A stretch of DNA of 64,000 bases. Origin: Lachnospiraceae bacterium (lineage in GTDB: Bacteria; Bacillota; Clostridia; Lachnospirales; Lachnospiraceae). This document shows positions 2 to 58,083 of the stretch, piece after piece (positions within the stretch are counted from its first letter, which is position 1; every line of letters begins with the position of its first letter). The position numbers and the translations under genes were made by a program. The notes beneath the pieces are model-generated. The model searched no databases. It was not told where the DNA came from and saw only the letters and a program-made list of their open reading frames with translations. The DNA lies in assembly GCA_902363135.1 (NCBI GenBank), contig CABIZF010000007.1:102926-166925 (forward strand). The letters run 5' to 3'.

Positions 2-304
2 ATGAGTGATAAGAAATACAGACCGGAGATTATGAAGAAAAAGATGGATATGAGTTCTTATGACGAGATCCTTCTGGGATTCCCAATCTGGTGGTATGTA
101 GCTCCGACAATTGTCAATACATTTTTGGAAGCCTATGATTTCAGTGGCAAAAAGATTGTGCTCTTTGCAACATCCGGTGGAAGTGGATTCGGTAATACTG
201 TAAAGGAATTACAGCCATCTGCACCGGATGCAGTTATCACAGAAGGCAGCCTGTTAAACCGTGGAACAAAAAAGGAAATCAGTGAGTGGGTAAAATCTTT
301 ATAA
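2..304 (+). CDS. Flavodoxin family protein, C-terminal part (5' truncated by window edge)
   Basis: About 100 residues are visible. The segment DEILLGFPIWWYVAPTI followed by a strand-loop LFATSGGSGFG is the second half of a flavodoxin-fold domain, with the FMN-contacting aromatic loop and the Gly/Ser-rich loop. The N-terminal phosphate-binding loop that every flavodoxin needs would lie before base 1, so the ATG at base 2 is probably internal. Role by family: an FMN-bound electron carrier or quinone reductase in the cytoplasm. It lies 28 nt upstream of the decarboxylase-cupin gene and is probably co-transcribed with it and, before the ICE inserted, with the aldo/keto reductase now at 53162. Confidence 0.8.
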   Translation: MSDKKYRPEIMKKKMDMSSYDEILLGFPIWWYVAPTIVNTFLEAYDFSGKKIVLFATSGGSGFGNTVKELQPSAPDAVITEGSLLNRGTKKEISEWVKSL

Positions 305-332: not shown

Positions 333-854
333 ATGGGAAAAATAATACAGACAGCAGGAAGAAATGCACTTGGTGAATTTGCACCGAAGTTTGCACATTT
401 TAACGATGATGTCCTTTTCGGTGAAAACTGGAATAACCAGGATATTGACGTAAAAACAAGAAGTATCATCACAGTGGTTGCTCTGATGGCTTCCGGAATT
501 ACAGATTCTTCTTTAAAATATCATCTTCAAAATGCAAAAAATCATGGTGTAACACAAAAAGAGATTGCCGCAGTAATCACACATGTCGCATTTTATGCAG
601 GATGGCCAAAAGCATGGGCTGTTTTCAATCTTGCAAAGGAAGTGTGGGAGACAGGCGAAGGAGATTTGCCATACGAAGAGGAAGCGATGCGGGCGCATGC
701 AAAAGAGATGGTATTTCCAATTGGTGCACCAAACGATGGCTTTGCACAGTATTTTTCTGGCAGAAGTTTTCTTGCACCAATCTCTACATCTCAGGTTGGA
801 ATTTTCAATGTGACATTTGAACCAGGATGCAGTAAACTGGATTATGTAGCATAA
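333..854 (+). pseudogene. Carboxymuconolactone decarboxylase-cupin fusion, 5' part, split by ICE insertion
   Basis: Residues 1-107 form a carboxymuconolactone decarboxylase (AhpD-like) domain, with the helix ITHVAFYAGWPKAWAVFNLA. From about residue 125 the start of a cupin domain follows (FNVTFEPGC), and the reading frame then runs into foreign DNA and stops after SKLDYVA. The missing cupin barrel is at 52884-53151. Joining base 832 to 52884 gives 768 nt in frame, a normal 255-residue fusion with no residue lost or gained. The truncated protein still has a whole decarboxylase domain and could be partly active. The start ATG follows TATGGAGG by 10 nt. Confidence 0.9.
822..840. other. attL: left chromosome-ICE junction
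   Basis: Chromosomal CCAGG is followed by the crossover core ATGCAG (827-832) and then by the ICE arm T-AAACTGG. The same ATGCAG recurs at 52878-52883, preceded by CCAGTTTT. The host side joins perfectly across the core to restore the target gene, so the boundary is placed by sequence and not by guess. Confidence 0.88.
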
Positions 855-21392: not shown

Positions 21393-22691
21393 ATGGCATA
21401 CACCAGTATCATCCCGGTCAGCCGTCTGGACAATTCCATCACTTACATCCGAAATAAGGATAAGACCACAAAGAAAGGGCAGAGTGCCGGCTCTCTGGAA
21501 GAAGCCATTGATTACGCCATGAACCGGGACAAGACAGAGCGTTCCGTTTTTGAGGATGCCATCGGCTGTGTCTGTGAGACTGCCTATCAAGATATGGTAG
21601 CTACAAAGAAACGCTACCACAAGATGGACGGAGTACAGGGCTACCATCTGGTGCAGAGTTTTGCAAAAGGGGAAGTCACCCCGGAACTGGCACACCAGAT
21701 CGGCATGGAGCTGGCAGAAAGGCTCCTTCAGGGAAAATACGAAGCAGTCATCACCACCCATTTGAATACGGCGCATTACCACAACCACATCGTGTTTAAC
21801 TCCGTTAGCATGGAAGATGGGAAAAAGTACCACAGCAACAGCAGGAGCTACTACGAGGATGTGAGGAAAGCATCGGATGCCTTATGCCTGAAATACGGAT
21901 TATCCGTCATCGAACCGAAAAACAGCAAAGGGAAATCCTACGCCCAGTGGATGGCAGAACAGGACGGAAAGCCGACCTGGAGAACCTCGATCCGTCTGGA
22001 CATCCGGGATGCGGTGGCAGAGAGCTTCACATGGAAACAGTTTCTGGAACAGATGAAGCAGAGGGGATACCAGTGGAAGCTGAACCGGAAGTACATTGCA
22101 TTAAAAGCACCGGGGATGGAACGGTATATCCGTCTGCGGAGCCTTGGGAAGCATTACTCGGAAGAGAGCATCCGCCAGTGGATCTTGCAGCCAAAAAGCA
22201 GGATACCTGTTGGAAAAGAAAAAACTTCCCAACCCCCGAAAAAGAAGTTAAAGGGGATACAGGCCCTGTATTATTCCTATCTGTATCAGATGGGTGTCCT
22301 AAAGCAGAAGCCGAAAAGGATCTCCCCAGTGCTCCGGGCAGATATCCGAAAACTGGATGCCAGGATCGAGCAGATGGAATTTCTACAGAAGCACCAGATC
22401 ACTACCCGTGAAGAGCTGATGGCATACCGAACCTCGTTGGAAGAGCAGGTACAGGCACTCATAAAAGAACGGAGGCGGCTCTACCGGAGCGAACCGGACA
22501 GTGACAGAATCAGTCAGATCACCGAAGAACTGAAGCCACTTCGAAAGGATATCCGTATCTGTGTGCGGATCGAACAGCAGTCCAAAGAAATGGAAGAGCG
22601 GATGCATCTGGCAGAGCAGATCCACAGACAGGCAGAACAGGAAGAAGAACAGACGGAGAAAACCAGACAACCGAGAACAGAAAGCAGGTGA
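21393..22691 (+). CDS. Relaxase/mobilization nuclease (MOB-P type)
   Basis: A 432-residue protein. The catalytic tyrosine is probably Tyr18 in RLDNSITYIRNKDKT. The metal-binding histidines are in THLNTAHYHNHIVFN (near 122-136), the motif III of VirD2/MobA-like relaxases. A GYHLVQSF strand precedes it. The C-terminal third (300-432) is charged coiled coil, probably for contacts with the coupling protein. It nicks one strand at oriT and pilots it into the recipient. It forms an operon with mobC and the PcfB-like gene. Confidence 0.93.
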   Translation: MAYTSIIPVSRLDNSITYIRNKDKTTKKGQSAGSLEEAIDYAMNRDKTERSVFEDAIGCVCETAYQDMVATKKRYHKMDGVQGYHLVQSFAKGEVTPELAHQIGMELAERLLQGKYEAVITTHLNTAHYHNHIVFNSVSMEDGKKYHSNSRSYYEDVRKASDALCLKYGLSVIEPKNSKGKSYAQWMAEQDGKPTWRTSIRLDIRDAVAESFTWKQFLEQMKQRGYQWKLNRKYIALKAPGMERYIRLRSLGKHYSEESIRQWILQPKSRIPVGKEKTSQPPKKKLKGIQALYYSYLYQMGVLKQKPKRISPVLRADIRKLDARIEQMEFLQKHQITTREELMAYRTSLEEQVQALIKERRRLYRSEPDSDRISQITEELKPLRKDIRICVRIEQQSKEMEERMHLAEQIHRQAEQEEEQTEKTRQPRTESR

Positions 22692-28671: not shown

Positions 28672-29106
28672 ATGGAAGTGAAAATGAATAAAGAAATCCG
28701 AGACTATCAGGAGTCAATGTTCTGGGGCTTAAGCTTCCGGCAGTGCTTATTTTCGGTACTGGCGATCCTGGCAGCCCTTGGAATCTATTTTGTCACCCGG
28801 AAATATGCCGGGGAACAGGTAACCGGATGGCTGTGCATCCTTGGGGCGGCTCCCTTTGCAGCCTGCGGCTTTTTTCGTTACCACGGCATGACGGCAGAAC
28901 AGTTTGCATGGGTAGTCATTAAATCCGAACTGCTGTACCCGAAGCGGCTGGTATTTAAGTCGGAGAACCTGTACTTTTCCTGCATGGAAGAGAGCCTGCG
29001 GCTGGGTGAGAAAATGATGGGAAACGGAGCGGAACTTCTGGAAAAGAAGCGGACGAAACAGAAGAAACCAAAGAAGCGAAGAGGAAGGGGTGATGCCTTT
29101 GATTAA
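28672..29106 (+). CDS. PrgI family T4SS membrane protein (VirB3-like)
   Basis: A 144-residue protein: MNKEIRDYQESMFWGLSFRQ, then two adjacent membrane spans (about 27-45 and 50-68), the family layout of PrgI, the Gram-positive counterpart of VirB3. The C-terminal end is basic. It overlaps the VirB4 gene by 14 nt, and the two usually act together. Confidence 0.85.
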   Translation: MEVKMNKEIRDYQESMFWGLSFRQCLFSVLAILAALGIYFVTRKYAGEQVTGWLCILGAAPFAACGFFRYHGMTAEQFAWVVIKSELLYPKRLVFKSENLYFSCMEESLRLGEKMMGNGAELLEKKRTKQKKPKKRRGRGDAFD

Positions 29107-31429
29107 AACCCTGAGTCAGACACTGAAACAGGACAAGGAAAAATTTAAAGTACCGAAGTCTGTCCAGCAGGCCATCCCGATTCGCAAGATCTGGCCAGAT
29201 GGTATTTTTCAGGTGGAGAGCAAGTATTCCAGGACATTCCGGTTTACGGATATCAACTATTCCATTGCCAGTAAAGCGGACAAGACGGAAATGTTCCTGG
29301 ACTACTCTGAACTTTTAAATGCACTGGATTCTGGCTGTACGGCGAAGATCACCCTGAACAATCGTAAGATCAACAAGGAAGAGTTTGAGCAGTCCCTGCT
29401 GATCCCGATGAAAGGGGACGGTCTGGACGAGTACCGGAAAGAGTACAATGACATGCTCCTTTCCAAGATCTCCGGTACCAACAACAGTATCTACCAGGAA
29501 CGCTATCTGACCATCAGCGTCCACAAGAAAAACATCGATGAAGCCAGAACCTATTTCGCACGTGTGGGAACGGACATCATCACCCATCTGGCCAAGCTGT
29601 CCTCTATTGGGGAAGAGCTGGATGCAGAGCAGAGGCTACAGATCTTCCGGGACTTTTTCAAGGCAGACGTTCCACAGAGTTTTTCATTTGACATGAAAGC
29701 CTTTGCGAAAAAGGGACACAGCTTCAAAGACTGGATCTGCCCGGACACGATGGAATTCCATAACGACCATTTCAAGCTGGGCGAGCAGTACGGCAGAGTC
29801 CTTTTTATGGAAGATTACGCCAGCTATGTAAAGGATGAGATGATCTCCGAACTGTGCAGCCTTGGCAGGAACCTGATGCTGTCCATTGATATCATCCCCG
29901 TACCGACAGACGAAGCGGTGCGTGAGATCCAGAACCGACTGCTGGGCGTGGAGACAAACGTCACCAACTGGCAGAGACGCCAGAATGCCAACAATAACTT
30001 TTCAGCCGTAGTTCCCTATGACATGGAGCTGCAGAGAAAAGAGACCAAGGAAATGCTGGACGATCTGACCACCAGGGATCAGAGGATGATGTTCGGCATC
30101 CTGACAATGGTACATATGGCAGACAGCAAGAAACAACTGGACTCCGATACGGAAACCCTGTATTCCATTGCGAGAAAACACCTCTGCCAGATGGCAACTT
30201 TGAAGTGGCAACAGGTCGATGGACTGAATACCGTCCTGCCGTATGGCCTGCGGAAAATCGATGCAGTGCGTACCCTTACTACAGAATCCACCGCCGTCCT
30301 GATCCCGTTCCATACGCAGGAAATCATGCAGCCGGGAGGCATCTATTATGGGCAGAATGCCGTCAGCAAAAATATGCTGGTGGCAGACCGAAGGAAGCTG
30401 TTAAACGGCAACTCTTTCCGACTGGGTGTCAGCGGCTCCGGCAAGAGCTTCTCGGCAAAAGAGGAGATCGTAGACCTTGCCCTTTCCACGGAAGATGACA
30501 TCCTCATCCTCGATCCGGAGTCGGAGTTTGCTTCTCTGGTGGAAGCCTTAAACGGAGAGGTCATCCGGATCTCGGCAACCTCGGATACCCATCTGAATGC
30601 ACTGGATATGGATTCTGCCTATGGCAATGATCGAAATCCTCTGATTGAGAAGTCAGAATTTATCCTTTCCCTGTTTGAGCAGCTCGTAGGAGCCGGAAAC
30701 CTTTCGGCAAAGGAGAAATCCATCCTTGACCGCTGCACCGCAGATGTGTACCGGGATTATATGAGGGGCGGTTACAAAGGGCAGGTGCCGACCTTAAAGG
30801 ACCTGTACCGACAACTCATGCTCCAGCCGGAAGAAGAAGCCAGAGGGCTGGCTCTGTCTTCGGAACTGTTTATCAATGGCAGTCTGAACACCTTTGCCCA
30901 GGAAACCAATGTCAACACGAAGAGCCGTATCATCGACTATGACATCCGGGAGCTGGGCGAACAGCTGATGCCCCTTGGCATGCTGGTCACACTGGATTCG
31001 ATTTTTAACCGTGTGATCCAGAACTGGAAGAAGGGAAAAACGACATGGATCTTTGCGGATGAGTTTTATCTGCTGTTCCGCTATGAATACAGTGCGGACT
31101 TTTTCTACCGCCTGTACAAGCGTATCCGTAAGTATTCCGGATTTGTAACCGGACTTACCCAGAACGTTGAGGAACTTCTGAAATCCGATACCGCCCGCCT
31201 GATGCTGGCGAACAGTGAGTTCCTGATCCTTTTGAATCAGGCTACCACCGACCGGGATGAGCTGGCGGCACTTCTGAATATTTCAGACAACCAGTTATCC
31301 TACATCACCAATGTGGGTGCCGGCCATGGTCTGATCCGCTGTTCCGGAAATCTGGTGCCGTTTGAAAATTCGTTTCCAAGAAATACAAAGCTGTACCGCC
31401 TGATGACGACCAAGCCGGGCGAAGGGTAA
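29093..31429 (+). CDS. virB4: VirB4-like conjugation ATPase
   Basis: A 778-residue protein. An N-terminal CagE/TrbE/VirB4 region (1-400), Walker A GVSGSGKSFSAKEE (about 443-456), Walker B-like DDILILDPESEFASL and FADEFYLLFRYEYS, and an arginine-finger region TQNVEELLKSDTARLMLANS. It powers assembly and substrate movement in the type IV system. ATG at 29093 follows GAAGGGGTG. Length is near the 750-850 usual for the family. Confidence 0.94.
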   Translation: MPLIKTLSQTLKQDKEKFKVPKSVQQAIPIRKIWPDGIFQVESKYSRTFRFTDINYSIASKADKTEMFLDYSELLNALDSGCTAKITLNNRKINKEEFEQSLLIPMKGDGLDEYRKEYNDMLLSKISGTNNSIYQERYLTISVHKKNIDEARTYFARVGTDIITHLAKLSSIGEELDAEQRLQIFRDFFKADVPQSFSFDMKAFAKKGHSFKDWICPDTMEFHNDHFKLGEQYGRVLFMEDYASYVKDEMISELCSLGRNLMLSIDIIPVPTDEAVREIQNRLLGVETNVTNWQRRQNANNNFSAVVPYDMELQRKETKEMLDDLTTRDQRMMFGILTMVHMADSKKQLDSDTETLYSIARKHLCQMATLKWQQVDGLNTVLPYGLRKIDAVRTLTTESTAVLIPFHTQEIMQPGGIYYGQNAVSKNMLVADRRKLLNGNSFRLGVSGSGKSFSAKEEIVDLALSTEDDILILDPESEFASLVEALNGEVIRISATSDTHLNALDMDSAYGNDRNPLIEKSEFILSLFEQLVGAGNLSAKEKSILDRCTADVYRDYMRGGYKGQVPTLKDLYRQLMLQPEEEARGLALSSELFINGSLNTFAQETNVNTKSRIIDYDIRELGEQLMPLGMLVTLDSIFNRVIQNWKKGKTTWIFADEFYLLFRYEYSADFFYRLYKRIRKYSGFVTGLTQNVEELLKSDTARLMLANSEFLILLNQATTDRDELAALLNISDNQLSYITNVGAGHGLIRCSGNLVPFENSFPRNTKLYRLMTTKPGEG

Positions 31430-46960: not shown

Positions 46961-48079
46961 ATGAGAAGATATGAGCTGGAAACAGAAAGAGAAGGCTCCA
47001 CCGTTTATTTCTTTATCAGAGATGTGGAAACACTGGATATCGTCCTGCTTCCAACCAAATATCTGATGCACAAGATACGGAGGAAATGTTCACCGAATAC
47101 GGTGCGGCGCTCCGCACTTGCAATCCTGTACTATCTGGAATACATCCATGAAAAGAAAAAGGAATTGACAGACGTATATCAAATGCCTTATGTTGAACAG
47201 ACAAATCACTTTGTGGAATTTTTATACTGGCTGAAAGCCGGGAAGCATACCAGAGATAAAAATCACAGATCTCCAAACAATGGAACCTGCAACGCATACT
47301 TAAGAGATGTGTTCAGGTTCTATCTTTTTATAGAAGAAGAGTACCAGCAGTTCGGGGAGCTGAAAGTCCTGTCCTATAATTATTTTGTAGCCGTGGATGC
47401 AGTAGGCGTAAAGAAAAGCATACGATCAAAGAGTTTCAAAGGCTATTTAAAAGAGGAAGAGCATAAGGCGAGAGCAGCAAAGAAAGATGAAATTGTGGAA
47501 ATCTTGAAAGCGTGTACCAATATAAGAGATCGGCTTCTCATGCTGCTTCTGGCAGAGACAGGCTACCGAATCGGTGAGATCTTAGGAATTGATTACAGTA
47601 AGGACATTGATTATCAGAACCACATAATCCGGGTATATTTCCGTGAGGACAATGAAAATGGAGCGAGAGCAAAGAATGCAGAATACCGAAGTGCGAAGAT
47701 CAGCAAAGATACCTTCGGCTTTTTAAATCTGTATATCGCAGAGTACCGAAAACTACTTCAGCACCAGACAAGCCTGTTTGTGAATATTTCCGGGGATAAT
47801 ATCGGAAAACCAATGAACGTGGAAGCAGTATACTCCATGCTAAAAAGAATGGATAAGAAAACAGGGATTAAGATCACGCCTCATATGCTCCGGCATTACT
47901 TTGGAAATGAGCGGAGAAAAGCAGGATGGTCGCTGGAACTGATACAGCTGGCCTATGGACACCGCCACATCCAGACAACCATCAATTATCTGGACATTGT
48001 GGATGATGAACTGCTGGATGCCAGCCAGGAATTCTACGAGAAACACTCCTCCCTGTATGGGATTGAGGAATTGCTATAG
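46961..48079 (+). CDS. Tyrosine recombinase 1 (Tn554 TnpA-like)
   Basis: A 372-residue protein close in size to Tn554 TnpA. N-terminal SAM-like core-binding domain (about 35-155). Catalytic domain: Arg in TGYRIGEILGID (about 202), HMLRHYFGNER (His-x-x-Arg, about 307-311), His in YGHRHIQTT and the nucleophile Tyr in INYLDI (about 342). All catalytic residues are present. It is followed after 12 nt by recombinase 2. Confidence 0.92.
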   Translation: MRRYELETEREGSTVYFFIRDVETLDIVLLPTKYLMHKIRRKCSPNTVRRSALAILYYLEYIHEKKKELTDVYQMPYVEQTNHFVEFLYWLKAGKHTRDKNHRSPNNGTCNAYLRDVFRFYLFIEEEYQQFGELKVLSYNYFVAVDAVGVKKSIRSKSFKGYLKEEEHKARAAKKDEIVEILKACTNIRDRLLMLLLAETGYRIGEILGIDYSKDIDYQNHIIRVYFREDNENGARAKNAEYRSAKISKDTFGFLNLYIAEYRKLLQHQTSLFVNISGDNIGKPMNVEAVYSMLKRMDKKTGIKITPHMLRHYFGNERRKAGWSLELIQLAYGHRHIQTTINYLDIVDDELLDASQEFYEKHSSLYGIEELL

Positions 48080-48091
48080 GAGGTGGTTTTT

Positions 48092-49843
48092 ATGCCTGCG
48101 TTTTTACAGCCTTTTATAGAGGCAGAACAAGAACGGAGCAGGCGGATTGAGCAGCTACGAAAAGAAATCCGGGAGTTTGCAAAAGAGGAAGCAGGAAGTT
48201 CCATTACAGAACAGATTCTGCTGTTTCTGGCAGATGAGATGGTAGAACATCTTTCGGAAATAGATTATGAACTGCGAATGAAATTTGAATTATACATAAC
48301 ACCGCTGATAAAGCGAAATTACATTTACCGATATACCGGAACGTTCGACCGGATACGGCAAGCGTACATCCGGGAACGGATGAAAACTCCGGCTGGACAG
48401 AGGGAATGTGAATGGAAATATAAAAATGAAATACTTTTTGTTCCATACCACTCAGATCCTGTAATCGTAAAGAGTGTGGAAACGGTACGGTGTCGGAGCA
48501 ACATGGTCTGGAATTTTAAAGCGGCAGCCAGTGAGAAACTGAAACGTCAGATTTTTACCGTGCTGGAATATATTCTGGAGAATTATGAAATTTCCAGACT
48601 GAGGGAATATAAACTGACCGGGCTACAGCTTTTTTACGAATTTTGCATCCGGGAGCAGATTACAGATATCCAGCTTCTGGAGCTGGAACAGGAAACAGCA
48701 TTTCAGGACTACCTGAAGCAGAAAGTCGAGAAAGAGCAACGGCGAAAACGACTGAAGAGCATTGTGGAAACTGCCCGTAAAGTGATTTTTATAGAAACTG
48801 ATGAAACAAGATGGGATGCTACCATCTGGTATTTAGAGCGGTTTCGTATTGCCAAAGAAAGAATAAACCAGAGTGACAGTATAGAAAAAATATCATTTCA
48901 GGAAGTTCTACAGCCCAAGAATCGATTGCTGCTTCAGGAATATATGAAGTACGAAATTGGAATCGGAGAACTGGCGCTCAGTACGGTGTACGAAAGATTC
49001 CGAACCATTCGAAATTTTTTGCAGGAGATCAGCGAACTGGAAGTTACCAAGTGTGATGCCAGCCTGATTGATGTATATTTAAAGAATTTGCAGAATGGTG
49101 CTATGGGAGCAAAGACATTTAATACCAATGTTTCGGGAATACAGTTTTTTATGAAATTTCTGGAAGTAAAGGGGTATATAAAAAAGGTTCCGTTTTATGC
49201 ATCGTATTACTTGGAAAAACAGATCCCAGTCCACCATAACAGAAGTGTGGAAGAGGATGTGTATATGGAAATTATTCAAAACCTCTCACAGTTTCCTGAA
49301 CACCTGAGAATGATGTTTTTACATCTCTGGTGTGTGGGACTCCGGATCAGTGAGGTCTGCACCTTAAAAGGGGATGCGTATTATATCCAGAATGGTGACT
49401 GCTGGATGAAGGTCTACCAGGTGAAAATGAAAAATTATAAAAGGGTTCCCATTCCGGTAACATTGTATTGTCTGATGCAGGTTTATCTGAAAAAGCACCC
49501 TACCGAAAAAGAAGCATACATTTTTCGGAATCGGAAAGGTGGAGCATTTTCCAAAAGCACCTTCATGGGGCAGATGAAAAAATACTGCTCCCAGATAGGC
49601 ATACAGAATGGAGAATATATTTTTAAGTCTCATGATTACCGACATACCGTAGCAACCAATTTTTATGAGCATGGCGTATCAATCCAAAGCATCCGGGACT
49701 ATCTGGGACATACGTTTGAGGAAATGACCATGCAGTATATAGATTATATGCCAAGAAAAATTGCTAAAGAAAATGACGCATACTTTGAGGAAGAGGAAAA
49801 CAGCCTGCTTGCCTGTATGCAGAAAGGAGAGAAGCATGGATAA
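48092..49843 (+). CDS. Tyrosine recombinase 2 (Tn554 TnpB-like)
   Basis: A 583-residue protein with a long N-terminal extension (about 300 residues) as in Tn554 TnpB. Catalytic Arg in GLRISEVCTLKG (about 416), HDYRHTVATNFYEHG (about 514), His in YLGHTFEEMT and Tyr in MQYIDYMP. The set is complete. ATG at 48092 lies 5 nt after AGGAGGTGG. It overlaps recombinase 3 by 8 nt. Confidence 0.92.
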   Translation: MPAFLQPFIEAEQERSRRIEQLRKEIREFAKEEAGSSITEQILLFLADEMVEHLSEIDYELRMKFELYITPLIKRNYIYRYTGTFDRIRQAYIRERMKTPAGQRECEWKYKNEILFVPYHSDPVIVKSVETVRCRSNMVWNFKAAASEKLKRQIFTVLEYILENYEISRLREYKLTGLQLFYEFCIREQITDIQLLELEQETAFQDYLKQKVEKEQRRKRLKSIVETARKVIFIETDETRWDATIWYLERFRIAKERINQSDSIEKISFQEVLQPKNRLLLQEYMKYEIGIGELALSTVYERFRTIRNFLQEISELEVTKCDASLIDVYLKNLQNGAMGAKTFNTNVSGIQFFMKFLEVKGYIKKVPFYASYYLEKQIPVHHNRSVEEDVYMEIIQNLSQFPEHLRMMFLHLWCVGLRISEVCTLKGDAYYIQNGDCWMKVYQVKMKNYKRVPIPVTLYCLMQVYLKKHPTEKEAYIFRNRKGGAFSKSTFMGQMKKYCSQIGIQNGEYIFKSHDYRHTVATNFYEHGVSIQSIRDYLGHTFEEMTMQYIDYMPRKIAKENDAYFEEEENSLLACMQKGEKHG

Positions 49844-51353
49844 TAAACTGAAATTCCAACAACTGGAATGTTATAAGCTGGCTACCGATGAGCAAAAGGA
49901 AAAGCTGAATAAGGAACAATATTTTGATCTGGATAAACTGCCGGGAAACCAGCTTCAGACAGAATTTGTCGAATACATTTACTACCGTGGAACGCAGGTA
50001 TCCATCCTGACCATAAAAAGGGAAAGGCATTATTTTAACAGCTTATGTGAATTTTTTCAGAAGTCATCCCATCAGGAGAACAGCCTGCTTGACAGAGAAA
50101 AAGACTTCTGGATAAAGCAGTTGAAAATGTGGATGATACAAAACGGTAGGGCTTTGACGAAGCATAAAGTGACGAACATTCAGACTGAATCGGTGGAAAA
50201 AGCTGCCCTGATCCGGTATTTTGAAAGCCTTCTGGAATTTACACTGGATCGATCAGAAACCAATGAGCTGGCAAAGGATATCTGGCATCTGGAAAGGCTT
50301 CCGCTTATCCTGCGGACAAATCCGATTGTCAACCATAAGACACTAAATTTCAGAGGAATCCGGCAACCAGATATTCGGGAAGAAGTAAAAAAAGCAATTT
50401 ACCATCATCTGAAAACCGAAGCCCTTGGCAGTATAAAACGTGAACTGTCCGCAATGAATAAATTTTCAAAGTATTTGGATGAAAAGCATTCCAAGATCAG
50501 CACCTGCGAAGAGATTGACCGGGAGATCATAGAACAATTTTTAATCAACATCAAGGTAGAATCAAACGGAGGGAATGGCATCCGGGATGACCTGCTAAAG
50601 CTTCGAAATGTGCTGGAAACAATCGGAAAAATTTATGATTTTCCACATCTTACAAAACTGTTTTTAAAATCTGATTTTCCGCCAGAACGGAAAGCAGAAT
50701 TCAAATCTTATTCGGACAGTGAGCTGAAAAGACTGAATGCCCAGATTGTAAAAATGGAAGAGCAGATAGCAAGGGCAATGATCATCCACCAGATGCTTGG
50801 AACCAGAATTTCCGACACGCTGACCTTGCGGAAAGACTGCCTTTATAAACATGACCGTCAGGATATGATTATCATATACCAGCCGAAAACAAGAAGATAT
50901 GAAAAACCGATCAGCCGGGAGCTGGCACAGCTGATTGGAAAGGCAGTCAGTTATGCAAATGAGCATTATCCTGAAAGCATTTATATCTTTGCGGACGAGA
51001 ACAAACCGGAGAGACCAATCAGTTACCAAACCTTGCAGGATAAAGTGCTTCGAATGATCTATGAAAAAGATATCCGGGATGACAGCGGAAACTTATTCGG
51101 ATTTGGAACGCATATGTTCCGGCACTGCTATGGGGTAAAATTAACGGAACTCCATGTGGATGACTGGACGATAGCGAAGCTCCTGGGACATAAGGGAGTA
51201 CGAAGTGTCCAATATTACCGAAAAATGAGCAATCAGCGGATGGCAGATGAAACAAGAGAAGTTAGAAATTTTATGTCACAGATTATACTGGCAAGTCTGG
51301 ACGGATGGGGAGAAGAATATGAGCAAATACGACAAGATGCTGGAATTGAATAA
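49836..51353 (+). CDS. Tyrosine recombinase 3
   Basis: A 505-residue protein: N-terminal helical region, core-binding domain about 205-300, and catalytic residues in LGTRISDTLTLRKD (about 323), HMFRHCYGVKL (about 426), LLGHKGVRSVQYYRKM (His about 453, Tyr about 461). Complete. A third recombinase in the same operon is the mark of recombinase-in-trio elements and is absent from classical Tn554 (two recombinases plus TnpC). GAAAGGAG precedes the ATG. Confidence 0.92.
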   Translation: MDNKLKFQQLECYKLATDEQKEKLNKEQYFDLDKLPGNQLQTEFVEYIYYRGTQVSILTIKRERHYFNSLCEFFQKSSHQENSLLDREKDFWIKQLKMWMIQNGRALTKHKVTNIQTESVEKAALIRYFESLLEFTLDRSETNELAKDIWHLERLPLILRTNPIVNHKTLNFRGIRQPDIREEVKKAIYHHLKTEALGSIKRELSAMNKFSKYLDEKHSKISTCEEIDREIIEQFLINIKVESNGGNGIRDDLLKLRNVLETIGKIYDFPHLTKLFLKSDFPPERKAEFKSYSDSELKRLNAQIVKMEEQIARAMIIHQMLGTRISDTLTLRKDCLYKHDRQDMIIIYQPKTRRYEKPISRELAQLIGKAVSYANEHYPESIYIFADENKPERPISYQTLQDKVLRMIYEKDIRDDSGNLFGFGTHMFRHCYGVKLTELHVDDWTIAKLLGHKGVRSVQYYRKMSNQRMADETREVRNFMSQIILASLDGWGEEYEQIRQDAGIE

Positions 51354-51702
51354 AAGAAAGAGCGAAGAAAAAGTGGAACGGGCAGTCCTGACAATACGGA
51401 CAATGGTGTTGGAGAGAGAAAAGGTGTCCGTACCAGCACTGATGCAAAAGACTGGTTTATCTAGAGGATTCTTTTACAAGAATCCGATTGTAAGAGGTGA
51501 GATTGATGCAGCAATGGAACAGCAGGCTGGTATGGTGGATCCAAGGAGAAACATTATCAGTCAGGCGATGGAAGCGGAAATGAATCTGCTCCGGCAACAG
51601 CTACAGAAACTGAAAAGCGAAAATGAGAATCTAATAAAGGAAAACCAGAAGTTAAAAAAAGCACTATCCAAGAAAGAGTTGAATCTTATCAAACAGATTT
51701 AA
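51319..51702 (+). CDS. TnpC/DUF6262-like accessory transposition protein
   Basis: A 127-residue protein, the size of Tn554 TnpC (about 125). N-terminal basic KMLELNKRKSEEKVERAVLT, an HTH-like segment KVSVPALMQKTGLSRGFFYK, and a C-terminal coiled coil (LLRQQLQKLKSENENLIKEN). TnpC influences orientation and efficiency in Tn554. It overlaps recombinase 3 by 35 nt and is the last gene of the operon before a long hairpin. Confidence 0.85.
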   Translation: MSKYDKMLELNKRKSEEKVERAVLTIRTMVLEREKVSVPALMQKTGLSRGFFYKNPIVRGEIDAAMEQQAGMVDPRRNIISQAMEAEMNLLRQQLQKLKSENENLIKENQKLKKALSKKELNLIKQI

Positions 51703-51703
51703 G

Positions 51704-51766
51704 CTATATCATAATGCAAAGTAGGTCTGCCAGAATACAGCAGATCTGTTTTGCATTGTGATATAG
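51704..51766. terminator. 63-nt near-perfect hairpin after the recombinase operon
   Basis: CTATATCATAATGCAAA (51704-51720) pairs with TTTGCATTGTGATATAG (51750-51766) with one G-U pair. The inside pairs further (AGGTCTGC with GCAGATCT). It is long and starts 2 nt after the stop. No T-run follows, so besides termination it could be an RNA-processing site or a recombination-related palindrome. Confidence 0.65.
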
Positions 51767-51928
51767 AAACAGATTATGCTTAAAAGGCATTAAGCAACCC
51801 ATGATAATGGGTATTGGACATAGAAAGTAATATGGGTGTATGATGGAGCCGATAAGAAATAGAGCGTACCTGAAAAGCAAACTGCCACAGGAAAATTATG
51901 AACTTTATGTAAAAAGCTGCAAAGTCTA

Positions 51929-51959
51929 TTGACCTGGAGTTTACTTCAGGTTGTACCAT
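51929..51959 (+). promoter_or_regulatory. MerR-type promoter with 19-bp spacer
   Basis: -35 TTGACC (51929-51934), exactly 19 nt, -10 TACCAT (51954-51959), with the dyad CCTGGAGT-TT-ACTTCAGG (51933-51950) centred between them. An over-long spacer holding a palindrome is the hallmark of MerR-family regulation (inducer twists the DNA to activate). No merR gene lies within the window, so a host regulator is implied. Confidence 0.82.
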
Positions 51960-51988
51960 AAAAGAAAAAGAGCAAGGAGGAATTTTTT

Positions 51989-52411
51989 ATGGATATTGAA
52001 CAGATGAAAAAAGACTTAGGTGGAGGTAACGTATTTCCAATCGGTGAAGAAAATGTAGTATTTGCAAAATATTTTACAGGTGAGTGCTATCTGAATATGC
52101 TTACAACAGAGAGAGTACCAGTTGGTCTCGTTACTTTCGCTCCTGGAACCATCAATGCATATCACATCCATCATAAAGGTGGACAGATCCTTATGGTTAC
52201 TGGTGGAAGAGGATGGTACCAGGAAGAAGGAAAGCCGGCTCGTGAGCTGAAAGCCGGAGATGTAGTAAATATTCCACCAGAAGTAAAACATTGGCATGGA
52301 GCAGCGAAAGACAGCTGGTTCCAGCATCTGGCTGTTGAAGTTCCGGCAGAGGGTGCTTCCAATGAATGGCTTGAGTTTTTACCGGAAGAAGAGTATAACA
52401 AATTACCATAA
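51989..52411 (+). CDS. Small cupin-domain protein
   Basis: A 140-residue single cupin: motif 1 INAYHIHHKGGQILMVTGGR with HxH-type metal ligands and Gly-Gly-Gln, motif 2 VVNIPPEVKHWHGA. These short cupins, with carboxymuconolactone decarboxylases, flavodoxins and aldo/keto reductases, form stress or aldehyde/quinone-responsive operons. It is first after the MerR-type promoter, with AAGGAGG 11 nt before the ATG. Its sequence parallels the cupin half of the gene split by the ICE. Confidence 0.9.
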   Translation: MDIEQMKKDLGGGNVFPIGEENVVFAKYFTGECYLNMLTTERVPVGLVTFAPGTINAYHIHHKGGQILMVTGGRGWYQEEGKPARELKAGDVVNIPPEVKHWHGAAKDSWFQHLAVEVPAEGASNEWLEFLPEEEYNKLP

Positions 52412-52436
52412 ATAAGAAAGATGGAGGTTTGATATC

Positions 52437-52775
52437 ATGGCAAAGATCACACAGATAGCAGGAAGAAATGCTCTGGGAACATTTGCACCAGATTTTGCAC
52501 ATTTTAACGATGACATTCTTTTCGGAGAGAACTGGAATAACGAAGATATTGATTTAAAAACAAGAAGTATCATCACAGTTGTAGCACTGATGGCACAGGG
52601 AATCACAGATTCCTCTTTGAAATTCCATTTACAGAATGCAAAGGATCATGGGGTAACACAGAAAGAGATCGCAGCAATCATCACTCACGTAGCATTCTAT
52701 GCAGGCTGGCCAAAAGGCTGGGCAGTCTTTAATCTTGCAAAAGAGGTTTGGAATGAGGACGAAGCAGAGAAATAA
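52437..52775 (+). CDS. Carboxymuconolactone decarboxylase family protein
   Basis: A 112-residue protein, strongly similar to residues 1-107 of the split fusion at 333 (both contain HFNDDxLFGENWNN and KTRSIITVVALMA). It ends soon after WNEDEAEK, so it has only this domain. It forms an operon with the cupin gene. Inside the ICE boundaries by the att reconstruction, it gives back the decarboxylase activity as a stand-alone protein. Family members are small helical hexamers, some with peroxidase-like Cys, though no CxxC is present here. Confidence 0.9.
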   Translation: MAKITQIAGRNALGTFAPDFAHFNDDILFGENWNNEDIDLKTRSIITVVALMAQGITDSSLKFHLQNAKDHGVTQKEIAAIITHVAFYAGWPKGWAVFNLAKEVWNEDEAEK

Positions 52776-52869
52776 CCTGGCAGAAACTGCTCGTCATGAA
52801 AGGGTCGCACAAAACACAGACGTGTATGCCGTTAAAGCCCGTAACTATAAGGGATTGCGGAGGGGTAGT

Positions 52870-52893
52870 CCAGTTTTATGCAGAAATAACTGG
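52870..52893. other. attR: right ICE-chromosome junction
   Basis: ICE arm CCAGTTT-T (52870-52877), core ATGCAG (52878-52883), then chromosomal AAATAACTGG. CCAGTTT is the exact reverse complement of the left arm AAACTGG, so the excised circle would have a symmetrical core site. Confidence 0.88.
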
Positions 52894-53151
52894 CATATCC
52901 ATCATGCAAAAAGTGGAGGCGGTCAGATCCTGGTATGTGTTGCCGGAAGAGGATATTATCAGGAAGAAGGGAAAGATGCTGTAGAAATGAAGCCAGGCGA
53001 CTACATCAATATTCCGGCAGAAGTGAAACACTGGCATGGCGCTGCTCCGGATGAATGGTTTTCCCATCTGGCAATTGAGGTGCCGGGAGTGGATTGTTCC
53101 AATGAGTGGTGTGAGGCGGTATCGGAGAAAGAGTACGCTGGATTAAGATAA
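52884..53151 (+). pseudogene. Decarboxylase-cupin fusion, 3' part (cupin barrel)
   Basis: From the junction the frame reads RNNWHIHHAKSGGGQILVCV, then DYINIPAEVKHWHGA and the stop at 53151: the cupin barrel missing from the gene at 333. Upstream, a continuous frame from 52699 reads through ICE-end sequence unrelated to the missing part and has no evident start, so the fragment is probably silent unless made as a short fusion. It is 10 nt before the aldo/keto reductase gene, and transcription from the MerR-type promoter probably still passes through it. Confidence 0.9.
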
Positions 53152-53161
53152 GGAGAGCACT

Positions 53162-54166
53162 ATGGAATACGGTAAACTCGGAAATACAGATATAGAAGTG
53201 TCAAAATTATGTGTGGGCTGCATGAGTTTTGGGAAAGCTGGAACCATGCATGACTGGACGTTGGATGAAGCTGAAAGTGAGAATGTTATCAAGCATGCAC
53301 TTGATTTGGGATATAACTTTTTTGATACAGCAAATGGATATTCAGCAGGAACAAGTGAGGAATATTTAGGTAAAGCATTGAAGAAAAATGTAGCGAGAAA
53401 TCAGGTTGTGATTGCATCCAAGGTATATTTTAATGAAGGTCGTTTATCAAGACAGGCAATCATGAGGGAAATAGATGGAACTCTGTCACGTCTTGGAACC
53501 GACTATCTTGATTTATATATCATCCATAGATTTGACTATGATACACCAATTGAAGAAACTATGGAGGCACTGCACGATCTGGTAAAAGCAGGAAAGGTCA
53601 GGGCACTTGGTGCATCTGCCATGTATGGATATCAGTTTTATAATATGCAGTTAGCCGCAAGAGACAATGGATGGACACCATTTTCTGCGATGGAGAATCA
53701 TTATAATTTGCTTTACAGAGAGGATGAGAGAGAATTGCTACCAATTTGTAAGCAAATGAAAGTTTCGTTAATGCCGTATAGCCCTCTTGCAGCCGGACAT
53801 CTGGCAAGACCACAGTGGAAATCAGAGTCTCTTCGTGGAACCACGGATAGGGTTGCCATGGGAAAATATGATAAGACTGAAGCGGAAGACATGCAGATAG
53901 TTAAACGTGTAGCGGAGCTTGCCGAAAAGTATAACTGCAAAATGTCCCAGATAGCCATTGCATGGCAGTGGGCAAAGGGAATTCTATCGCCTATTATTGG
54001 GGCAACCAAAACGCAGTATCTGGATGATTCAGCCGGAGCATTTGACATTAAATTAACTGCCGAAGACCTAGCATATCTTGAAGAGCCATATGTTCCACAT
54101 GAGATAGTTGGTGCAATTGATAAAAATCCGGCGCAAGGTGTTATTTTGCTTGATGAAAAGAAATAA
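53162..54166 (+). CDS. Aldo/keto reductase
   Basis: A 334-residue TIM-barrel oxidoreductase: LGNTDIEVSKLCVGCMSFG at the start, FDTANGYSAGTSEEYLGKAL with the catalytic Asp and Tyr, IASKVYF Lys strand, YIIHRFDYDTPIEE with the His, and the NADPH-binding end SPIIGATKTQYLDD. It reduces aldehydes or ketones. It belonged to the flavodoxin/decarboxylase-cupin operon before insertion; now its nearest visible promoter is the MerR-type one in the ICE. Ribosome site AAGGAGAG. Confidence 0.94.
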   Translation: MEYGKLGNTDIEVSKLCVGCMSFGKAGTMHDWTLDEAESENVIKHALDLGYNFFDTANGYSAGTSEEYLGKALKKNVARNQVVIASKVYFNEGRLSRQAIMREIDGTLSRLGTDYLDLYIIHRFDYDTPIEETMEALHDLVKAGKVRALGASAMYGYQFYNMQLAARDNGWTPFSAMENHYNLLYREDERELLPICKQMKVSLMPYSPLAAGHLARPQWKSESLRGTTDRVAMGKYDKTEAEDMQIVKRVAELAEKYNCKMSQIAIAWQWAKGILSPIIGATKTQYLDDSAGAFDIKLTAEDLAYLEEPYVPHEIVGAIDKNPAQGVILLDEKK

Positions 54167-54181
54167 AGTTTCAGTAATCAT

Positions 54182-54220
54182 AGAGTGTATGGATTCAATT
54201 CCATATGCTCTTTTTCTTTT
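54182..54220 (+). terminator. Terminator after the aldo/keto reductase
   Basis: AGAGTGTATGGA (54182-54193) pairs with TCCATATGCTCT (54200-54211), with two G-U pairs, then TTTTCTTTT. Confidence 0.85.
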
Positions 54221-54403
54221 ACTTAATTTCAAGAAAAATGCAGAAATCTAATGTTACGAGTTTCTTACGAGTGGCATTAAAAAAAACTCGCAAGAAAAAA
54301 AGTAAAAAAATTTGCTTTTGACCACTGTAAAACAGGCTCTGAGCGTTTCGTTATATGAAGGGATAATTTTTCTTTCATAATTCAAAGAAAAGAGGACAAA
54401 GAA

Positions 54404-57580: not shown

Positions 57581-57611
57581 AATTATGGTGCAAATAACAA
57601 GTATATGAAAG

Positions 57612-57646
57612 AAAAAGAGCCTTGGCGTGATGTCAGGGCTCTTTTT
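57612..57646. terminator. Bidirectional terminator after the GH91 gene
   Basis: AAAAAGAGCC (57612-57621) and GGCTCTTTTT (57637-57646) are exact complements. A group II intron 5' end lies 8 nt beyond. Confidence 0.88.
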
Positions 57647-57653
57647 AGTGGAA

Positions 57654-57837
57654 GTGCGCCTAGCGGCGCACGTTTCGTTTGCGCGCCATGGGCGCGCTCT
57701 CGCAGGTGAAAGTCCTGAACATGCCCAGGTAGTGGGAAATGTATAGCTGAACAGCAAGGGTGTCCATCGTGAGGTGGAATCTGAAGGAAGCTGTAGGCAA
57801 ATCCTTGGTCCGACGGACAGAAATCGCATATGAGGCT
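57654..57837 (+). mobile_element. Group II intron fragment, 5' end of domain I only
   Basis: It starts with GTGCGCC, the usual 5' end of bacterial group II introns, and contains GTGAAAGTCC and later ACAGAAATCGCATATGAGG, words typical of intron domain I. After about 184 nt the sequence changes to an IS3 gene fragment, and no reverse transcriptase is present. It sits directly downstream of a terminator hairpin, the target of class C introns. Confidence 0.65.
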
Positions 57838-58083
57838 ATCTCGTAATTCTCGTTGCAAACGAGCAATTTCTTTTGCCTCATCACTTGCATAATTGCCTGA
57901 TCCACGAGTCGGAACAGCTCCTTCATGATTCTTTGCTGATTTCATCCAATTCTTCAGTGCCGACTCACTGATTCCGAGATTTTCAGCACATTTACGGAGT
58001 GCCATCTCTGGATGCTCTAATCGATACCTTACTGCATCTTCTTTAAACTCCTGTGAATATTTTGTACCTTTTGCCATAACCAT
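57838..58083 (-). pseudogene. IS3-family transposase OrfA fragment
   Basis: About 80 residues: YSQEFKEDAVRYRLEHPEMA, LRKCAENLGISESALKNWMK, then EIARLQRELRD, the HTH and leucine-zipper start of IS3-type OrfA. The normal continuation is cut by the intron fragment, and what follows in frame is antisense intron. GGAGGAG precedes the start at 58083 or 58077. No OrfB remains. Confidence 0.82.

Follow-up and report, generated by a model that had tools for sequence, protein, structure and literature searches.

A conjugative element that splits a CMD-cupin redox gene carries its own cupin and CMD genes, a possible stand-in for its target

The locus described here has its closest precedent in Vibrio cholerae S24, whose recA mobile element (RME) interrupts recA and brings a recA of its own that is 23% divergent; movement of the RME was demonstrated at the bench, and its authors state that the element's copy leaves recA-requiring pathways unaffected, thereby sparing the host (PMC4405046). 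In both cases, a site-specific island breaks a coding gene and brings a divergent relative of it, and the copy on the RME is functional (PMC4405046). The RME carries one gene, whereas here there are two stand-alone genes, putative substitutes for one domain each of a fusion; the carrier is a conjugative element, and the carried cupin comes from another subfamily that lacks the attachment motif. A second likeness is to the Tn554-related elements and the strand-biased circularizing elements (SEs), in which tandem tyrosine recombinases are followed by a small partner gene, insertion sites are preferred, and the ~6-bp core can differ between the two ends, all as here (PMC10214605); the Tn554 hosts in Table 1 of that paper are Staphylococcus and Enterococcus. 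Unlike in Tn554 and the SEs, the three recombinases here all match PF00589, conjugation genes are present, and the partner is a DUF6262 protein in place of Tn554 TnpC or SE Srap, a parallel of position and size only. Islands in tRNA and tmRNA genes also resemble what is proposed below in that island sequences restore the target, but those islands rebuild it in place (PMC4383910), whereas the genes here are separate from the target and would substitute for it. Our literature search, with most subscription journals outside its coverage, found no description of this element family.

The window, i.e., the whole stretch of 64,000 nucleotides that was analyzed, contains a ~52-kb integrative conjugative element inside a host operon consisting of a flavodoxin gene, a gene for a fusion of a carboxymuconolactone decarboxylase-family (CMD) domain and a cupin domain, and an aldo/keto reductase gene. 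The classification follows from the predicted recombinase, relaxase, and conjugation ATPase that lie between two defined ends. In base-pair order, the features are as follows.

2-304, plus strand: host flavodoxin gene, truncated by the window start (Pfam Flavodoxin_4)
333-832, plus strand: left part of the split host fusion, containing the CMD domain in full and the beginning of the cupin domain
827-832, no strand: left core, ATGCAG
833-52877, no strand: integrative conjugative element, left inner end TAAACTGG, right inner end CCAGTTTT
21393-22691, plus strand: relaxase (NCBIfam relaxase models, matched below cut-offs)
29090-31429, plus strand: VirB4-like conjugation ATPase, CD1110 family (NCBIfam NF045971, above cut-off)
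46961-48079, plus strand: tyrosine recombinase 1 (PF00589)
48083-49843, plus strand: tyrosine recombinase 2 (PF00589)
49761-51353, plus strand: tyrosine recombinase 3, likely start 49839 by our choice (PF00589)
51247-51702, plus strand: DUF6262 protein, likely start 51319 by our choice (PF19776)
51929-51959, plus strand: MerR-type promoter-like site with a 19-bp spacer (pattern only)
51989-52411, plus strand: carried stand-alone cupin, with FAPGTINAYHIHH where the target has FEPGCRNNWHIHH (PF07883)
52437-52775, plus strand: carried stand-alone CMD-family gene (PF02627)
52808-52877, plus strand: conserved right terminus (terminus profile; the profile match reaches 52878)
52878-52883, no strand: right core, ATGCAG
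52884-53151, plus strand: right remnant of the split cupin domain
53162-54166, plus strand: host aldo/keto reductase (PF00248)

The element is flanked on both sides by the 6-bp core ATGCAG, and its inner ends CCAGTTTT and TAAACTGG are inverted relative to each other; the limits 833 and 52877 were set from siblings in which both ends can be read. The first-pass annotation had put the right end near 51770, but the actual end is at 52877 and is followed by the core, ~100 bp beyond the carried CMD gene. The ~70-bp right terminus, whose profile was built from six sequences, lies outside the cupin and CMD genes and is kept in distant relatives that do not have those genes; no second terminus was found at 51701-51990. 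The terminus pattern had no matches in IMG/VR, plasmids gave no match, and a single weak hit to phages covered 17% of the query at 71.9%. Outside the element, a transposase-like ORF lies at window positions 57583-58083, the name being a reading from the ORF list only.

That the insertion splits a decarboxylase-cupin fusion, as first annotated, is borne out by two near relatives in which both parts are contiguous. At the empty site in L151, the joined flanks are each 98% identical to those of the window, and the aldo/keto reductase adjoins the intact fusion; in L152 the flanks are 97% and 96% identical, and at both sites the matches of the two flanks overlap by 8 bp around the core. Within the ~3.7-4.0 kb fetched, the carried pair is absent from both empty sites, where the sole CMD-like stretch is the fusion's own; the empty site with cupin and CMD genes already beside the fusion, named beforehand as evidence against an element-borne pair, was thus encountered in neither. 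In the window, the left ORF of the split fusion (173 residues) continues into the element to 854, and by Pfam its CMD domain at residues 18-103 is unbroken. The claim that both domains are destroyed therefore stands for the cupin, which is split, and fails for the CMD domain, which is left whole, and a need to repair both activities is not supported. Four of 240 proteins fetched (P0191, P0218, P0233, and P0240, representing 71, 250, 30, and 2 sequences, respectively) are CMD-cupin fusions truncated by the element's left end, ending KLDYVA.

Both carried genes are intact, the cupin of 140 and the CMD protein of 112 amino acids, and they read outward on the plus strand, as originally described. 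Their closest NCBIfam models are (R)-mandelonitrile lyase for the cupin and carboxymuconolactone decarboxylases for the CMD protein, both below cut-offs; the best solved structures are the cupins 2f4p and 4bif and the carboxymuconolactone decarboxylase-family proteins 4g9q and 2af7, respectively. Sequences at 95-96% identity to the carried cupin abound in public data, with clusters of 1241, 873, and 125 members, and the element, found in gut-type bacteria, has near-identical copies in several genera.

A scan with recombinase 3 yielded 26 loci, six of which (L001-L006) are 91-100% identical, and whole-genome searches added two further siblings: G145 (L076, recombinase 3 at 94%) and G779 (L158, L186), the latter known from its two ends and its cargo, 89% in DNA, with the recombinase outside the comparison. 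The contig of L001 stops inside the cupin, leaving its right end unreadable. All eight copies with a readable right end, i.e., the window and seven siblings, carry both cupin and CMD, and the co-travel predicted in the first-pass annotation is thereby supported; siblings ending near 51770 without these genes, the counterexample it had named, did not appear. Seven of the eight copies are inserted at a cupin motif, and one, L003, lies in an ABC ATPase gene at a DEPT motif (the left half of that gene matches PF00005 above cut-off); L003 and L004 share an identical recombinase 3. The CMD-cupin fusion is hit in the window, L002, L004, L006, and G779, and a cupin without a fused CMD domain in L005 and G145; upstream of the target cupin in the L005 host is an ORF with merely a remote CMD match. 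Intact relatives of the target are carried by all seven cupin-site copies, whereas L003 has the pair but an ABC target. In our reading, the cores at the two ends agree in the window, L005, L006, and G779 and differ in L002, L003, L004, and G145; the end that holds the host's own core varies, being the left one in L003 and the right one in L004. Decay of the target remnant was dropped as a sign of age, a frame change being found in only one of the seven cupin sites (G145).

The carried genes were at first taken to be close relatives of the lost domains. This holds for the CMD gene, which shares 82% DNA identity with the host CMD over 300 nt, sibling copies having 84-88% amino acid identity to an intact fusion, but not for the cupin, whose sibling copies reach only 55-56% amino acid identity to an intact fusion. 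In the tree, the carried cupin belongs to a clade with TIN or TVN instead of CRN ahead of the metal-binding HIHH, the fusion cupins being placed elsewhere, and descent of the carried cupin from the target was rejected on this basis. The carried CMD protein is placed among CMD domains of the Blautia type, its position within them having modest support. The carried cupin lacks CRNNW, which 21 of the 26 native cupin loci fetched contain; three others have TIN, and the motif was unmatched in two. Because native cupins of the same clade are also without the attachment motif, it was probably already missing before the cupin joined the element, and we rejected alteration of the motif by the element. 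The distant element in L007 (recombinase 3 about 51%), inserted in a radical-SAM gene, has a cupin of its own (L007 12146-12568); that cupin contains the motif and takes a different tree position from the carried cupin, L007 being a long branch, which argues that cupins entered such pockets at least twice. No further member of the L007 lineage was found in 397 genomes (E<=1e-150, >51% identity).

The right end of the window is mosaic. Compared with L003, recombinase 3 and DUF6262 differ at 6 of 1864 positions, the stretch 51806-52411 differs at 41 of 606, and from there to the element end there are no differences in 466. The patch, which covers promoter and cupin, is sharply bounded with respect to L003, L004, and L006, CMD and terminus being identical, and this divergence suggests that the promoter and cupin of the window were probably exchanged with another source. 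Chimeras occur among the proteins as well. Six CMD proteins (P0201, P0205, P0210, P0216, P0225, and P0228) are host-fusion-like in their first ~80 residues and carried-CMD-like in their last ~20, and P0201 represents 854 sequences; a near-identical gene is absent among 64 genomes of the genus, the best match (96%) being an intact fusion. Such chimeras may be scars of a deletion by recombination between host and carried CMD sequences, products of gene exchange, or errors of assembly. Ten cupins (P0020, P0022, P0026, P0029, P0035, P0039, P0043, P0044, P0049, and P0053) join a carried-type N-terminal half to a host-like C-terminal half, the switch point in most lying near YQEEGK. In the host of sibling L001, a native cupin gene is followed by a CMD gene (L042, G002:C311:161-903), the same order as in the cargo.

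Among distinct carried alleles, pairwise dN/dS is 0.015-0.034 for the cupin, at a dS of 0.29-0.57, and 0.007-0.065 for the CMD gene; recombinase 3 gives 0.049-0.103 in pairs with a dS of about 0.09 or more, the ratio being unstable in pairs with fewer changes. These values point to strong purifying selection on the carried pair. Eleven genomes were searched with an intact fusion as the query (E<=1e-20), a threshold that leaves room for more distant cupins or CMD proteins in all 11. Another intact fusion is missing from five of the six cupin-site hosts (G003, G005, G006, G145, and G779; G006 has remote CMD matches), and G001, also with a cupin-site insertion, retains a second one. Blautia wexlerae MSK.20.46, which bears L006, keeps a second fusion. 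In G004, the host of the ABC-site copy, the search found the carried pair only. For G002, which hosts L001 and whose insertion site is unreadable, the search found an intact fusion (64%) along with a native pair of cupin and CMD genes.

Ahead of the carried cupin, the promoter-like site comprises TTGACC, the 19-bp spacer with an imperfect dyad, and TACCAT. A site of equal pattern and length was present in all five sibling copies scanned, with a weaker dyad in several, and in none of five host flavodoxin operons over the 300 bases scanned upstream. In Bacillus subtilis, the MerR regulator AdhR raises the CMD-family gene yraC, among others, under formaldehyde or methylglyoxal (PMC4776306). The likeness is in the CMD-family gene, which there stands under a MerR-family carbonyl-stress regulator; unlike here, a cupin partner or a mobile element is not mentioned in the available part of that paper (PMC4776306), and no MerR gene was present among the 10 element ORFs scanned with Pfam. 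A weak terminator-like hairpin lies at 52852-52871, one of two such sites in 51300-54400, where 1.6 are expected by chance. The suggestion that the element supplies a promoter for the downstream host gene, with read-through into the aldo/keto reductase, is not supported; in sibling L002, the next large ORF beyond the element is on the opposite strand.

In the wider family, 36 right ends were tabulated, several of them from near-identical elements and one (L098) with a weak terminus match (19.4 bits). Judged by flanking frames, their sites comprise 6 cupin, 15 flavodoxin, 10 ABC ATPase (including L003), and 1 radical-SAM gene (L007), together with 4 that are unnamed; the site motif is P[IN]WW in flavodoxin and DEPT in ABC ATPase genes. 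Ten fragments from non-cupin sites all agree with the assigned target, those from ABC genes below cut-offs: Pfam confirmed radical SAM for L007 and flavodoxin for four of four fragments, whereas none of five ABC fragments exceeded the Pfam cut-off, because they start after Walker B, and all five match NCBIfam ABC ATPases below cut-offs. Target type tracks the recombinase tree, in which the cupin clade has support of 100/100; the exceptions are L003, L019, L020, and L024.

Between DUF6262 and the right terminus lies a cargo pocket, which among the 36 right ends is empty in 17 (including L023, with a broken DUF6262 frame), contains cupin and CMD in 7, has a lone cupin in 1 (L007), and is occupied by other genes in the remaining 11. 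The seven with the pair are the six cupin sites and L003, the pair in L005 being taken from a separate sequence comparison. Other pockets hold anti-phage genes, namely Tmn in L081, Mokosh MkoA/MkoB in L078, and KAP NTPases of the type of candidate system PDC-S20 in L008 and L082; that of L008 also holds a second gene without an assigned family. Unassigned pocket genes include one of 402 amino acids in three loci and one of 247 in four; no Pfam or PADLOC match was obtained for L018 11924-12667, L083 2093-3301, or L008 12209-13873 (247, 402, and 554 amino acids). The pocket matches the target in 6 of the 36 right ends, all in the cupin clade, and no other tabulated pocket contains a copy of its own target. 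Neither these pockets nor the flavodoxin-targeting relative G109, in which ~53 kb showed no intact flavodoxin, support a rule by which family members in general would bring a copy of their target. Two flavodoxin-site elements seen over 60 kb each (G042 and G296) were left out of this count; they showed no flavodoxin piece, and their left ends lie outside the view. Module exchange is seen in G651 (L145-L147), which shares its conjugation backbone with the window (VirB4 99% and relaxase 93-94% identical), whereas its recombinase 3 is only 43-44% identical, its pocket gene is a different one, and its target is an ABC gene. In this case, the one that allows a clear comparison, cargo changes along with the integration module while the conjugation backbone stays the same.

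We give about an even chance to the view that the cupin-CMD pair is a functional stand-in for the broken redox gene. In this view, the pair is a fixed part of an integration module made up of the recombinase trio, DUF6262, the cargo pocket, and the right terminus. The recombinases prefer GCRNNWHIHH, a conserved cupin motif, and so tend to disrupt redox cupins of the host, in many cases within a CMD-cupin fusion. The module supplies both domains as a pair of genes behind a promoter-like site of its own, such that the host would retain the function; as the subfamily of the carried cupin is without the attachment motif, the element would be unable to insert into its own spare. The data show the co-travel, the target, the missing motif, and the constraint; the pair would in addition be expressed, replace the lost function, be shielded by the missing motif, and be kept for that reason. 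Speaking for a stand-in are the presence of the pair in all eight readable copies, the cupin-motif sites of seven of them, the G651 comparison, the low dN/dS, the five cupin-site hosts in which no other intact fusion was found, the two empty sites without the pair, the presence of CRNNW in most native cupins but not in the carried one, and the six pockets that match their target. Counting against it, the match of cargo with target is a single event, because it has only one phylogenetic origin; in addition, G001 and the host of L001 (G002) retain an intact fusion, L003 and L007 have a cupin without a cupin target, native cupins of the same clade lack the motif too, the CMD half of the target is unbroken, the pocket is a general cargo site, and the flavodoxin-site element of G109 offers no intact flavodoxin. 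Pure repair, the role first proposed, is further weakened by the ABC site of L003, the second fusion in G001, the L007 cupin in a radical-SAM gene, the anti-phage pockets, and the lack of target copies in other pockets. Several of the same facts favor the leading rival, in which the pair is accessory cargo like any other: a small operon against electrophile or oxidative stress, retained for its own benefit in the variable pocket at the right end, with a match to the target that is coincidental and made likelier by the element's life in redox operons; we consider this a real possibility, short of an even one. In its favor, the same pocket is variable in relatives (Tmn, Mokosh, PDC-S20 KAP NTPases, and unassigned genes), no other tabulated pocket has a copy of its target, and both L003 and L007 have a cupin without a cupin target; the control of CMD-family yraC by a MerR regulator in B. 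subtilis carbonyl stress (PMC4776306) also fits such an operon. Against this rival, all seven known cupin-site copies carry precisely the two domains that make up the usual target.

It is improbable that the pair represents local capture without a role, in which neighboring redox genes were picked up from a former host and persist as the element is young. Relatives of the flavodoxin, cupin, CMD, and aldo/keto reductase genes do adjoin one another in several hosts, a native cupin-then-CMD order exists in L114, and the cupin segment is mosaic, but the dS of 0.29-0.57 and very low dN/dS of the carried cupin indicate long maintenance, even if part of this divergence may stem from exchange with other cupins. 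A recent imprecise event that trapped host genes at the right end, the alternative offered in the first-pass annotation, or a tandem insertion would account for cargo sitting at the element's end. We rejected both as very improbable indeed: past the cargo lies a terminus homologous to those of relatives without cargo, no second terminus was found at 51701-51990, and the pair is absent from both empty sites and present in all eight copies.

Returning to the stand-in reading, its fullest form is tentative, and we regard it as rather doubtful: a conjugative element would prepay the cost of its insertion with a two-gene spare, drawn from a lineage immune to the module's own recombinases, and the host would then become dependent on it. 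If true, host dependence on the element for the fusion's function would disfavor variants that have lost part of it. Insertion into a protein-coding gene should carry a cost for the host, and, among the related elements of this sample, whose targets include cupin, flavodoxin, and ABC genes, relatives of the target are found only in those that hit cupins. The evolution of compensation for an element's own target is thus directly testable here, with the empty sites, the ABC-gene copy, and the host with a second fusion as natural controls.
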